This document shows, piece after piece, positions 2,624 through 22,716 of a stretch of 24,283 nucleotides of DNA (the first letter of the stretch is position 1; each line of letters opens with the position of its first letter). The translations under genes and the position numbers were made by a program. The notes below the pieces were generated by a model. It was not told where the DNA came from. It ran no database searches and saw only the letters and a program-made list of their open reading frames with translations. This stretch comes from a virus: positions 1 through 24,283 of the IMG/VR virus record IMGVR_UViG_3300032092_002842. One strand, 5' to 3'.

Positions 2624-3547
2624 CTAAACAAAACTGAGTTGATCGTTGACGAGTGCGGCTACGATGTCTTGAGTCTTTGGGACGCCCATACCCCAGAACG
2701 GATCGAATCCAGGATCACCCTTGTCCTGGGTGTACTTCGCCAGAAACGCTCGAACGGCTTCCACCCCGGTAAACTCTGCTGCGCCTTCGCGTCGCATTAG
2801 CTCAACAATCAAAGCAAACAACCCCGCCGCGAACGGAGTTGCCATGCTCGTTCCTGACATACCTCGGAAACTGTTGTTGGTCGAGCAAGACACGATGTCT
2901 TGTCCTGGACAGCACATGTCGAGCTCGCGTCCACCAGACGAAAACGAAGCTCTTTGCCCGTCTTTTCGATAGGCACCAATGCAAAGCGACTCAGGATACT
3001 TTGCTGGGTAGCCAATTGTATTTTGCCTTCCGTTGAAGCCTGAGTTGCCAGCAGCCGAGATCGTGATCACCCCTTTGCTCCAAGCATACTCCATGGACTT
3101 TCGCGTCGGCTCGTAAGGACTGCTTGACCCCAGCGACAAGGAAAGGATGTCTGCTCCATTGTCTACTGCATCGCGTACTCCATTGGATATTCCATCGGAC
3201 GATCCCTGTCCGCCGTTTGAAAGCACCTTGATTGCCATCAACGACGCATCAGGAGCAACTCCGATTCCATCTCTAGCGAGCACGGTCCCCGCGCAATGAT
3301 TACCATGACCGTTTCCATCACTTATGCTTTCGCCTCGAATGAACGACTTCGAATAAACTGGCTTCGGAAGCAAGTCATGGGGAGTATATCCAGTGTCCAG
3401 GACCGCCACGACGATACCCTTGCCAGTGACCCGCTTCCAAATCGGCTCGAACGTCGCTTTTGGAAGATGCCACAGATCTCCCGGAACTGCAAACGTCTGC
3501 ACGTCCGAAACCAAGTCTGGTGGCAAATATACTGGTGGTGACTTCAT
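2624..3547 (-). CDS. Subtilisin-like serine protease (S8 family)
   Basis: A 307-aa S8 peptidase carries all catalytic signatures: Asp51 in VAVLDTG, His81 in GNGHGNHCAGT, the oxyanion Asn168 in AAGNSG and the nucleophile Ser234 in GMSGTSMATP. The protein is close to a bare catalytic domain. It has no detectable signal peptide and little room for a propeptide (about 40 residues before the first strand), so it may act inside the cell or in the particle rather than as a secreted enzyme. ATG 3547 is preferred over GTG 3550. It lies after capsid and lectin-fold genes, downstream of a terminator-like hairpin. Capsid maturation, processing of virion proteins or host-surface degradation are possible roles. 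Dedicated prohead proteases are usually of other folds, so the location is unusual. Confidence 0.93.
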   Translation of the reverse strand: MKSPPVYLPPDLVSDVQTFAVPGDLWHLPKATFEPIWKRVTGKGIVVAVLDTGYTPHDLLPKPVYSKSFIRGESISDGNGHGNHCAGTVLARDGIGVAPDASLMAIKVLSNGGQGSSDGISNGVRDAVDNGADILSLSLGSSSPYEPTRKSMEYAWSKGVITISAAGNSGFNGRQNTIGYPAKYPESLCIGAYRKDGQRASFSSGGRELDMCCPGQDIVSCSTNNSFRGMSGTSMATPFAAGLFALIVELMRREGAAEFTGVEAVRAFLAKYTQDKGDPGFDPFWGMGVPKTQDIVAALVNDQLSFV

Positions 3548-3572
3548 CACTTGACCCCGATATCAATCTGAA

Positions 3573-14329: not shown

Positions 14330-14617
14330 TTACTCTGGCTCAAAATTGTGCTCGTTGAGGTATTGCAGCACGTCTCGAGCGTGTGCCGCGCTTTCGTAAG
14401 CCGAGATGGTCTCGCTTTCGTAGGCATAGCGACCGAAGCTATCGCCGCCTTGCCAAACAACTGTCGCTTTCATGTGGCAGTCCTCCTGACCGTTTTTTCG
14501 AGTCTCCTCGATCTCCAGCATGGTAAGGTCTTCGTTCCAGTCGGTGATCGCATATTGCTCGCCATCGACTTCGAACGTGTAACTGACCGACTTCTTGTAC
14601 GCTACTTCTTGTGCCAT
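14330..14617 (-). CDS. Hypothetical small protein (95 aa)
   Basis: A soluble acidic protein begins MAQEVAYKKSVSYTFEVDGE. The first half is beta-rich and the end is helical (YESAAHARDVLQYLNEHNFE). GAGG precedes the start. It overlaps the HNH gene by 16 nt at its start, and both lie in the same minus-strand operon. No family recognised. Confidence 0.7.
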   Translation of the reverse strand: MAQEVAYKKSVSYTFEVDGEQYAITDWNEDLTMLEIEETRKNGQEDCHMKATVVWQGGDSFGRYAYESETISAYESAAHARDVLQYLNEHNFEPE

Positions 14618-15042
14618 CGTTTAACATCCTCTCGAACATTTGGGTTGTAAAGCGTCCAGGAGGGTCTACGCCACCCCCATGGACCGTCTGGGTCGTGACC
14701 AATGCGGAAGTGGTGCTCGCGGCAGAGCGTGATCAGATTGTCCATGTCCAGCTCGAGCTCAGGGTAATCCTTGAACGGCTTGATGTGGTGGACGTTCAAG
14801 TCCCACGACAGACCGCAAGCTTCGCAACGGGGGTGCAGCTCGACGAACTCGTTGCGGACAGCCTGCCACTTGCCAGAGCGTTCGCCGTAGGGAGTCATCG
14901 ACTCGACCGACTCAACATGCTGTTCGATCGGCTCGTCCGGTATCGAGCCTATCGCGTCGGAGAAAAAGTACGCGACGATACCGAGTAGGCAAACGCCGAG
15001 CAGCGTAAAAAACGCCTCTGCCAAAGCTTTACGTTGGGTCAT
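14602..15042 (-). CDS. HNH endonuclease with N-terminal membrane helix
   Basis: The 146-aa protein has a membrane segment at residues ~9-28 (AFFTLLGVCLLGIVAYFF). A zinc-type HNH domain follows: CEAC (73-76), the first catalytic His pair in NVHHIKPF (85-86), ELELDMDNLITLC with Asn102, and CREHH (107-111). HNH enzymes nick or cut DNA using a metal ion, and small phage HNH proteins often assist packaging or act as homing enzymes. A membrane anchor on one is unusual and would place the nuclease on the inner membrane face or outside it. The start ATG 15042 has GAGGTGACAG, a good ribosome site, so the anchor is not an artefact of a wrong start. Confidence 0.88.
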   Translation of the reverse strand: MTQRKALAEAFFTLLGVCLLGIVAYFFSDAIGSIPDEPIEQHVESVESMTPYGERSGKWQAVRNEFVELHPRCEACGLSWDLNVHHIKPFKDYPELELDMDNLITLCREHHFRIGHDPDGPWGWRRPSWTLYNPNVREDVKRWHKK

Positions 15043-19344: not shown

Positions 19345-21333
19345 TTATTCAAACGGGAGCATGCCACTGGTTTTGCCGACTACGTGAGCAATACGAGCTT
19401 CCGCGATTTCCAGATATTCAGCCTCTTGCTCGATGCCGATAAAGCGAAAACCCTCAAGCATCGCCGCCTTTCCCGTCGAACCAGACCCCATAAACGGATC
19501 AAGGATCAAGCCGCCAGGAGGGGTGACAAGCCTGCAAAGGTAACGCATCAGGTCGGTAGGTTTGACCGTGGGGTGGACGTTCTTCCGTTTCGTCTCACAG
19601 AGATTGCCACTACCAGTTTTTATGGGGTAGTTGTCATCCTCCATCATCCCACATGCCTTCAAAAGCATGTTGTCACACCCTTCATCCCGGTCTTTCTTGC
19701 TTGCCTTTGCGCAGTAAAAGAATCTGGCTGCGGAACCAGTGTCATTCCTGGATGAGAAAGGAACGCGACCAAACTCACCGTAACAATTTGCATCCCCAGT
19801 CTTACTCGGTTCGCTGCCTCGAACGTCTCCTTGCTGCCCTTTGCTGTCAGGAAACAACGCCAGCACCTCCTCGCTGCCATCGTGGAGAAAATTAGCCGGA
19901 AACCGGCCCAATTGCTCAGCCTTAGCGACCGCTTCATCGCCGCGAGCCTTGCAAGCCTCAATCGCTTCGCTGTCATGCTTCCAAGGTCTGTCCCATCCTT
20001 CTGTGGTTGTGCTGATCCTACCGCCGCCTAGCTTGTCCCCGTTTGCCTCTACCCTACACGCATCGATATTCAGCCCGCCGGTTCCGTGTTCGAGTACGTT
20101 GGCTGCGACGGTAAGCTGCGATCCGGGTACGAACTCAGGAAGTCCGCTCGGCCACAAAAACCGACCCTCTAAATCCCGGACTATGCGGACAGACGCCATA
20201 GAGCCTGTAAGCCCAGTTGCAATTCCAACAAAGGACTCTGTATCCCTCAGGGTATCCGTCTCTTTTGAGTTGCTCGTAAACTTTTCCGTGAATAGATTTC
20301 CTGTGCTGGGTCCCTCCGCCGTTGATATGGTCGATTGTAAGGAAAACTGGTTCGGTCTCTCCGCAGCATTTGCACTTTCCACCGTAAGCGGATAAGACTT
20401 GATCTCGCAATTTTTCGCGCTGGGATTTTGCGTAACTCCTGTTGTGCTCCCTGTTTTTTGCTCTCCAATCGGCATGGGCTTTTCTAAACTTTTCCGGGTC
20501 TGCCTCTCTTCGCTCCCTGTCTCTGTTTCGCCTGCACTCTTTGCATATACTGCCGAAGGTTCCAAGTGTCTTGTTGAATCTAAGCTGGCCTTGAGTTTTT
20601 TCTTCCCCGCACCGCTTGCATTTTCTTTTTTCCATTTTATATCTCCTTTTACTCCTTGATTTCTTAGGCTGGATTCTACCACGGCCAAGACGTTTACGCA
20701 AGATGTTTTTAACGGCTTGCGGGCTAAGGTAATGGGCTCTAGGGCAGGCTTGAGGGCTGTACCCCATCCTTCCCATTGACGGGCTGCGTCTGTGGCTGGC
20801 TCTCCGGTGAGAGGGACTTCCTTCGTAGCTGGTTTGCACCAGAGGTTTCTCCCGTCCCCCGTGTCCGATGTCTCAGCATCACCGAACGCGGATGTCCGCG
20901 TCCCGATCACTTCGCGTTCCGCTCCTGCCGCCTTGTCGATCGCCTTGGAGACGTCGAGACTTTTCGGAAAGCCTTGCCCGTAGCACCAAAAAATCATATC
21001 GCGAATTTCGAATCCTGCGAACCTGAGGGACATTGCCATCCAGTCCTGCGTTCGAGTCCCGGCAAACGCTAGTAAATGCCCACCGGGCTTGAGCACCCTA
21101 AAAACTTCCTTCCAGACAATAGGCGGCGGGACAAACGCATCCCATTTCTTACCCATGAAGCCTTTGCCCTGGACTTCAAAATACCCTTGCGTCGCCCAAG
21201 CAGTCATCACTTTGACTGGATCCGGAGCCTTTCCTAGCCCATAAGGCGGATCGGTAACAATCGCATCGACCGAGCAATCCGCTAGGGTCTTGAGTACGTC
21301 GAGGCAATCGCCGTGGTGTAATTCATATCGCAT
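19345..21333 (-). CDS. DNA methyltransferase carrying a ~200-codon insertion
   Basis: The 662-aa enzyme is an N6-adenine or N4-cytosine methyltransferase of the beta order: motif IV DPPY at residues 28-31, the AdoMet motif LDPFMGSGSTG near 611-621, and HPTVKPTDLMRYLCRL between. It transfers a methyl group from AdoMet to bases in duplex DNA. Residues ~209-407 are extra. The conserved run ...ALEPITLARKPL is followed by a hydrophilic Ser/Thr/Lys/Glu-rich stretch before TVAANVLEHGTGGLNIDACR resumes the family sequence. That stretch overprints an HNH gene in another frame (20135-20635), yet contains no stop. ATG 21333 is preferred over 21369 since the latter lies inside the previous gene. No restriction partner is visible nearby. 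Confidence 0.92.
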   Translation of the reverse strand: MRYELHHGDCLDVLKTLADCSVDAIVTDPPYGLGKAPDPVKVMTAWATQGYFEVQGKGFMGKKWDAFVPPPIVWKEVFRVLKPGGHLLAFAGTRTQDWMAMSLRFAGFEIRDMIFWCYGQGFPKSLDVSKAIDKAAGAEREVIGTRTSAFGDAETSDTGDGRNLWCKPATKEVPLTGEPATDAARQWEGWGTALKPALEPITLARKPLKTSCVNVLAVVESSLRNQGVKGDIKWKKENASGAGKKKLKASLDSTRHLEPSAVYAKSAGETETGSEERQTRKSLEKPMPIGEQKTGSTTGVTQNPSAKNCEIKSYPLTVESANAAERPNQFSLQSTISTAEGPSTGNLFTEKFTSNSKETDTLRDTESFVGIATGLTGSMASVRIVRDLEGRFLWPSGLPEFVPGSQLTVAANVLEHGTGGLNIDACRVEANGDKLGGGRISTTTEGWDRPWKHDSEAIEACKARGDEAVAKAEQLGRFPANFLHDGSEEVLALFPDSKGQQGDVRGSEPSKTGDANCYGEFGRVPFSSRNDTGSAARFFYCAKASKKDRDEGCDNMLLKACGMMEDDNYPIKTGSGNLCETKRKNVHPTVKPTDLMRYLCRLVTPPGGLILDPFMGSGSTGKAAMLEGFRFIGIEQEAEYLEIAEARIAHVVGKTSGMLPFE
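20135..20635 (-). CDS. HNH homing-type endonuclease nested in the methyltransferase gene
   Basis: The 166-aa protein starts at ATG 20635 with a near-perfect AAAAGGAGATATAAA ribosome site. It has an N-terminal zinc ribbon (CKRCGEEK ... CKECRRN), a basic coiled linker, then a zinc-HNH core: CKCCGE, LTIDHINGGG, HRKSIHGKVYEQLKRDGYPE, VLCWNCN. This is the usual form of freestanding phage HNH homing enzymes, which cut an unoccupied allele and spread their own gene. It lies wholly within the methyltransferase gene on the same strand, in a different frame. The last His of some HNH motifs is replaced (CWNCN), as in many members. Confidence 0.9.
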   Translation of the reverse strand: MEKRKCKRCGEEKTQGQLRFNKTLGTFGSICKECRRNRDRERREADPEKFRKAHADWRAKNREHNRSYAKSQREKLRDQVLSAYGGKCKCCGETEPVFLTIDHINGGGTQHRKSIHGKVYEQLKRDGYPEGYRVLCWNCNWAYRLYGVCPHSPGFRGSVFVAERTS

Positions 21334-21603: not shown

Positions 21604-22716
21604 CTATTGAAACAAAAGTCCGCTGGATTGCTTTACTGCTGCATCAATTCTGGTTTCAGCCAACTTTATGTACTTGGCGTTTAACTCAATGCCGACGTAC
21701 CTTCTGCCGTTGAGGATAGCAACCTCGCCTGTTGTTCCGCTGCCGTTGAAGGGATCGAGAACCACACCGCCCTTTCGAGAGCCGGCCAGAACGCAAGGCT
21801 CGATCAACGCAGGAGGAAATGTGGCAAAGTGAGCACCCTTGTATGGCTTTGTGTTGACAGTCCAGACGGAACGTTTGTTTTTGCCTTTTTCTAAGTCTAC
21901 CGCCATGTCCCCAAAATCGTTGTCGTAATTATGACCCTGCATACTTTCTTTGCTTCCTCCGCCGTTTTGAGCTCTTTTCCATCGGTACTTAGCTCGCTCG
22001 TGCGTTGCTTCGCTGCATGGTTCTTTGATCGCCTCATTGTCAAAGTAGTACTTTGCCGACTTGCTCAGCAAGAAAACGTATTCGTGTGCCTTGGTGCATC
22101 GATCCTTGACGCTCTCGGGCATCGGGTTTGGCTTGTGCCAAATGATGTCCTGCCGCAGATACCAGCCGTCGGCTTGCAAGGCAAAGGCAACACGCCACGG
22201 GATGCCAATGAGGTCTTTTGGTTTGAGGCTTGCTACATTCACCCTTATTCCGCCCGTCTCGTCCGCCGTATGCCAGTTCCCTACGTCGCCTGTGCCGTTT
22301 TTACGCTTCGAATTGGTGCCAGCGTTATAACTATCCCCTATGTTCAGCCACAGCGTCCCATCGTCCCGCAGCACCCTTCGGACCTCGCGGAACACCGCAA
22401 CTAACTTCGCCACAAACTCGTCAGGCGTAGGCTCAAGCCCAATCTGACTATCAACCCTAACCGCACCGCACTTTTTGCATTTGCTAGCATCGCAACCAAA
22501 ACGAACACCAGAAACTATTGCGCCAGGAGCCTTGTTGTCCTGAACTTGCCCTCCTACGGAATGATCGCAACCAGGATCGCCACCCTCCCATTCCGCTGTC
22601 CCGTAATCCCGCAGCCCAAAATACGGCGGCGACGTTACGCAACAGTCAACAGATCGCTCTGGCATCGACGCAAGCAATTTGAGGCAATCGCCCTGGTGTA
22701 GCTCGTAAGGTTTCAT
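21604..22716 (-). CDS. DNA methyltransferase (TSPPY type) with Cys cluster
   Basis: The 370-aa enzyme has the catalytic motif TSPPY at residues 28-32, the form usual for N4-cytosine and some N6-adenine methyltransferases, and the AdoMet-binding LDPFNGSGTTG near 320-330, again in the beta order. An inserted segment (residues ~50-83) contains Cys50, Cys75, Cys80 and Cys83 (CKKCGA), probably a zinc ribbon in the target-recognition region. Its target site cannot be read from sequence. Modification of phage DNA against host restriction is the likely role, as no cognate nuclease is seen. ATG 22716 lies only 6 nt beyond a promoter -10 box, so its mRNA may be leaderless. Confidence 0.93.
   Translation of the reverse strand: MKPYELHQGDCLKLLASMPERSVDCCVTSPPYFGLRDYGTAEWEGGDPGCDHSVGGQVQDNKAPGAIVSGVRFGCDASKCKKCGAVRVDSQIGLEPTPDEFVAKLVAVFREVRRVLRDDGTLWLNIGDSYNAGTNSKRKNGTGDVGNWHTADETGGIRVNVASLKPKDLIGIPWRVAFALQADGWYLRQDIIWHKPNPMPESVKDRCTKAHEYVFLLSKSAKYYFDNEAIKEPCSEATHERAKYRWKRAQNGGGSKESMQGHNYDNDFGDMAVDLEKGKNKRSVWTVNTKPYKGAHFATFPPALIEPCVLAGSRKGGVVLDPFNGSGTTGEVAILNGRRYVGIELNAKYIKLAETRIDAAVKQSSGLLFQ

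Follow-up and report, generated by a model that had tools for sequence, protein, structure and literature searches.

The window analysed here, IMG/VR virus record IMGVR_UViG_3300032092_002842, positions 1 to 24,283 (24,283 bases), carries an uninterrupted ORF for a DNA N6/N4 methyltransferase (Pfam N6_N4_Mtase, E 9.6e-33; PHROG 67, E 2e-72), in which the motifs DPPYG and DPFMGSGSTG are both intact (Table 1). Alignment with seven insert-free relatives (L001, L003, L005, L007, L009, L010, and L018) confirms the original prediction, made from the sequence, that this frame of 662 codons includes the extra residues 209-407, and fixes their ends: conservation ceases at RKPL and picks up exactly at TVAANV, leaving an insert of ~597 nt and a net gain of about 197 codons. 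A second DNA methyltransferase ORF (21604-22716, minus strand) lies directly upstream of the inserted one, and the same order of the pair recurs in L001 and L002.

Table 1. Features of the inserted methyltransferase gene, in window coordinates
Feature	Position	Strand	Remark
DNA N6/N4 methyltransferase ORF, insert included	19345..21333	-	662 codons + stop; uninterrupted
In-frame insert, methyltransferase residues 209-407	20113..20709	-	Alignment with insert-free relatives
N-end module SCVNVLAVVESSLRNQGVKGDIKW, residues 211-234	20632..20703	-	Conserved; related peptide ends the N-halves of split methyltransferases
HNH shadow in the methyltransferase frame, residues 235-365	20239..20631	-	Ser/Thr/Lys/Glu-rich, open, weakly conserved, predicted disordered
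C-end module ESFVGIATGLTGSMASVRIVRDLEGRFLWPSGLP, residues 366-399	20137..20238	-	Conserved; related peptide starts the C-halves of split methyltransferases
HNH endonuclease ORF, third frame relative to the methyltransferase	20135..20635	-	166 aa + stop; ATG at 20635, stop at 20137-20135
Shine-Dalgarno AAAGGAG, 7 nt upstream of the HNH ATG	20643..20649	-	Read from the sequence

The insert was also predicted to hold a complete HNH gene with its own ribosome site, in another frame of the same strand, and this is borne out by an ORF of 166 aa that is preceded by AAAGGAG and matches the PHROG 2255 HNH endonuclease (E 1.5e-19); an additional AAGGAG is found near its start, at 20657-20652, and a Pfam search of the window HNH gave no strong HNH match. 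In the relatives that share its site, described below, GGAG or GAGG stands 5-7 nt ahead of every HNH start, and all six members that were aligned have the same D-H...N residues. Judging from the sequence, the window HNH is presumably both expressed and active.

A search with the HNH retrieved five IMG/VR contigs (L033-L037) in which a homologous HNH (47-68% identical) sits in this methyltransferase with neither site nor frame changed, and a pattern search added a seventh locus, L098, which comes from a PVC-group MAG. These seven loci, metagenome contigs included, are the only members known of the same-site family, and the methyltransferase of L033 is truncated by the end of its contig. The inserted members are scattered on the methyltransferase tree, in a patchy spread, and the window methyltransferase has its nearest relatives among insert-free genes (up to 67.5% identity), the inserted members being more distant (43-63%), as homing predicts.

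Across the HNH, all seven same-site loci keep an open methyltransferase frame, whereas none of nine free-standing HNH relatives does, each having 2-20 stops in the equivalent frame; the other shifted frame contains 2-11 stops in every same-site member. Stops in the third frame need NTA or NTG before A or G, and are therefore mostly avoidable by synonymous choice. When each HNH was recoded synonymously with the local codon usage, the methyltransferase frame stayed open in 5.7% of recodings for the window alone, and in 5.7, 0.6, 3.7, 2.2, 17, 3.1, and 0.5% over the seven loci, giving a joint P of about 1e-11, which is indicative as the loci are diverged yet not fully independent. A stricter null, in which each gene's own codons were permuted, was weaker (10% for the window, with L037 uninformative). 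In the methyltransferase frame the seven members share an identity of 0.364, where the HNH amino acids alone would predict 0.269 (sd 0.008). Most of this excess falls within the last 30 HNH codons, which adjoin the C-end module (z 6.2 and 11.2), and it is small over the ~120 preceding codons (z about 1-3). The open-frame layout is beyond chance, and it is highly improbable that HNH composition and codon bias produced it incidentally, with the methyltransferase a tolerated wreck and the HNH an ordinary mobile gene, since the ease of keeping the third frame open and the modest figures for the window alone, which would favour such an origin, are outweighed by the joint probability across diverged loci, the free-standing relatives that are never open, the conservation above the synonymous null, and the intact methyltransferase motifs.

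No group I or group II intron was matched by Rfam in the window, at a relaxed threshold included, nor in six related loci, and the intron reading was rejected on this basis; a Pfam search of the window methyltransferase found no intein domain, and no Hint-type splicing motifs were seen by eye in the insert, whose +1 residue is Thr. As neither an intron nor an intein signature was found, the insert is probably read through unspliced and most likely remains, translated, in the methyltransferase. The seven loci and the lack of an intron core lend good support to the prediction of an out-of-frame HNH, probably unspliced, inside a host gene whose frame stays open. The same negative search speaks against the small intron that was offered as an alternative, and the term 'frame-shadow intein' proposed for the element is misleading, since there is no indication of the insert being removed. 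A homing endonuclease within a conserved host gene is likewise a feature of inteins and group I introns, but here no splicing domain or ribozyme core was detected and the insert is apparently retained. An unrecognised self-splicing intron, or some other removal at the RNA level by which the methyltransferase would never contain the insert, is very unlikely. Group I introns do often carry HNH genes, and at its left end the insert looks like the downstream exon (TSCVNVL vs TVAANVL), as also noted for the ShiLan domain compared below (PMC11855218); nevertheless, about 600 nt with a 500-nt ORF leave little room for a ribozyme core, neither the window nor the six related loci gave a group I or II match, and splicing would select neither an open frame nor protein-level conservation of the insert ends.

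Such conservation is found at both ends of the insert, with the consensus NVLxxVESxLRxxGVxGEIxW at the N-end (core E..LR..GV.GEI.W) and RDSDGxFxWPxxLP at the C-end, and together with the weakly conserved middle it shows that the insert consists of an N-end module, a nearly free open linker, and a C-end module. In the modules, the rate of difference at third codon positions (0.58-0.69) is about double that at first and second positions (0.24-0.38), in the fused genes and in the split genes described below alike, indicating selection at the protein level. The expectation that the methyltransferase frame through the HNH encodes disordered protein thus seems to hold for the ~130 middle residues, but not for the two ends. 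Part of the conservation of GEI.W could stem from the ribosome site and start codon of the HNH; counter to this, the peptide persists in split cases whose GGCGAT or GGTGAT weakens the Shine-Dalgarno. In AlphaFold models, which were shallow and poor overall (mean pLDDT 49 and 56), the insert had an ordered N-end helix (pLDDT 83-93), C-end strands (70-80), and a low-confidence middle, and no pairing between the end modules was seen. The end modules could not be assigned to a known phage domain, as tblastn with the joined modules gave only weak, unrelated matches (Gordonia GMA1 terminase, syn9 baseplate), and the C-module as a single query gave no matches.

We consider it likely, with good confidence, that the window holds an HNH homing element in a phage DNA methyltransferase gene which has been selected not to break its host gene. 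The HNH would be translated in the third frame from the internal Shine-Dalgarno site, and would have spread by cutting insert-free methyltransferase genes. The methyltransferase would be translated straight through, with the insert kept, presumably in an active enzyme, as a surface excursion formed by the helical N-end module, the ~130-residue disordered HNH shadow, and the beta-rich C-end module. The two end modules may hold the entry and exit points of this excursion together.

Related N-end and C-end modules are present in six split methyltransferases of the same family (L004, L059, L060, L066, L071, and L093), in which the host gene consists of two ORFs around an HNH gene. One of these, L004, was found by methyltransferase homology alone, and it has another HNH, another insertion site, a broken methyltransferase frame, and similar ends. 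L059, L060, L062, L066, L071, and L093 were retrieved by searching with a sequence pattern of either end module, and the module similarity of the split cases is partly ascertained, as most were retrieved with a module pattern. In the split cases the insertion is mostly at the FPKS-ALKP linker. The N-half ends in E..LR..GV.G[DEN]I.W[KR] (with the variant GVENIEWK in L093), with a stop directly after W[KR], just inside the overlapping HNH start, and the C-half has its own start and a Met-led peptide ending [IV]..[DNH].DG.F..P; L062 is degenerate, with no C-half in the examined stretch. The split-case endonucleases are of several types (PHROG 8446, PHROG 1271, and PHROG 3322), and no fewer than four endonuclease types are found between related modules. 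Among the seven same-site loci, none has a broken methyltransferase frame with the HNH family of the window: relatives in which the frame is broken and an HNH is kept differ from the window in having separate ORFs, other HNH types, and mostly another site, and they carry the related modules.

An N-end profile built from L004 and L093 alone, both found without the N-end pattern, detects the window (E 1.7e-4) and ranks fused members first to fifth of 2,624 ORFs. The C-end link between fused and split cases is weaker by single-profile search (E 0.3-2); the profile-profile score is 28.8, against a maximum of 14.4 in 100 column-shuffled controls. The fully specific N-module pattern retrieved only L004, and relaxed patterns retrieved the split cases together with unrelated peptidoglycan-binding-like proteins and one unrelated ORF.

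On the model reported for NrdA/mobE of phage Aeh1, compared below, the end modules may be borne by the element and keep the interrupted enzyme together, whether it is fused, as in the window, or split, as in other loci. In the split loci they lie on the two half-proteins and may join the halves, presumably by pairing physically. We put forward tentatively, giving it slightly less than even weight, the reading that this is an HNH element family with its own protein fastener, namely two short peptide modules that stay with the element as its endonuclease gene changes and join the interrupted methyltransferase, whether this is a single overprinted polypeptide or a pair of associating chains. The related modules around at least four endonuclease types would also fit a small domain already present in some methyltransferases, on which HNH genes land, but the modules are found at no fewer than two positions of the methyltransferase (ARKPL/TVAANV and the FPKS-ALKP linker), and joined-module searches of phage genomes returned no HNH-less copy, which makes such a domain a rather unlikely, if serious, explanation. 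If the modules are instead a fastener carried by the element, they would provide a splicing-free way for a homing gene to reside inside a host gene, and might serve as small protein-joining tags.

The layout is not as unusual for a homing enzyme as was first thought, since a hidden HNH endonuclease in an actinophage DNA methylase, in the same methylase family and at a nearby site, has already been published as the ShiLan domain (Arsenault et al. 2025, PMC11855218). This is an in-frame insert of ~200 codons without stops, whose third frame encodes an HNH and which lacks the signature of an intron or an intein; its distribution is patchy and its left end resembles the downstream exon (PMC11855218). 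In all these respects, including the completeness of the third-frame HNH, ShiLan gp65 and the window are alike. The ShiLan HNH begins at a GTG 18 bp into the insert, has no ribosome site, so that a leaderless start was proposed, and stops at the insert end (PMC11855218). It spans almost the whole insert, whereas the window HNH starts about 75 nt inside its insert, at an ATG with a Shine-Dalgarno. The two also differ in the insertion site, that of ShiLan being at ALKP, about 12 residues upstream of RKPL/TVAANV, and in the HNH itself, which in ShiLan has zinc ribbons; conserved end modules of the window type were not seen in ShiLan gp65. New with respect to ShiLan are therefore the other site and HNH family, the internal Shine-Dalgarno, and the two conserved end peptides, as well as the statistical test over seven loci and the end modules common to gene-splitting relatives. 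An endonuclease gene that itself leaves the host frame open represents a third way, besides introns and inteins, for a selfish endonuclease to reside in a coding gene. The related end modules connect the published hidden-HNH inserts with gene-splitting HNH elements, and make the step from fused to split host enzymes directly testable.

In the NrdA of Aeromonas phage Aeh1, the subject of work attributed to Friedrich (2007) and Crona (2011), insertion-borne tails on both parts are reportedly interaction domains that restore activity. The likeness to the window is that the interrupted enzyme acquires new tails on its two parts through the insertion of an HNH gene. In Aeh1, as outlined in PMC2988022 and PMC3267527, the HNH insertion nrdA-a / mobE / nrdA-b leaves the host enzyme as two polypeptides, whereas the window methyltransferase is a single ORF. 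Homology between the modules and the Aeh1 NrdA tails was not apparent by eye.

Other hidden endonucleases were met in the searches. In Escherichia phage BUCT618 (OM735461 36809-37411; L029:1893-2495), an ORF annotated merely as methyltransferase contains a different hidden third-frame HNH, with zinc ribbons, at another site (after FPKSANVSKQID); the host frame is open (P 0.002 by synonymous recoding), and the searches found no near-identical relatives with an empty site. The methyltransferase ORF of L098 contains two hidden endonuclease genes, the second being a third-frame zinc-ribbon HNH (L098:1187-1630) between SAARFF and KYSPKAS. The inserted methyltransferase of L035 (818-4306) also has an apparent intein in the FPKS region (YGCLSEDTEV ... 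FVTGNSGFPKS), and ShiLan gp65 likewise has an intein there. Elsewhere in the window, on the minus strand, another HNH-like ORF (14602-15042) has an apparent N-terminal membrane segment, and an ORF at 2624-3550 resembles a subtilisin-type serine protease, which is unusual in a phage structural region.
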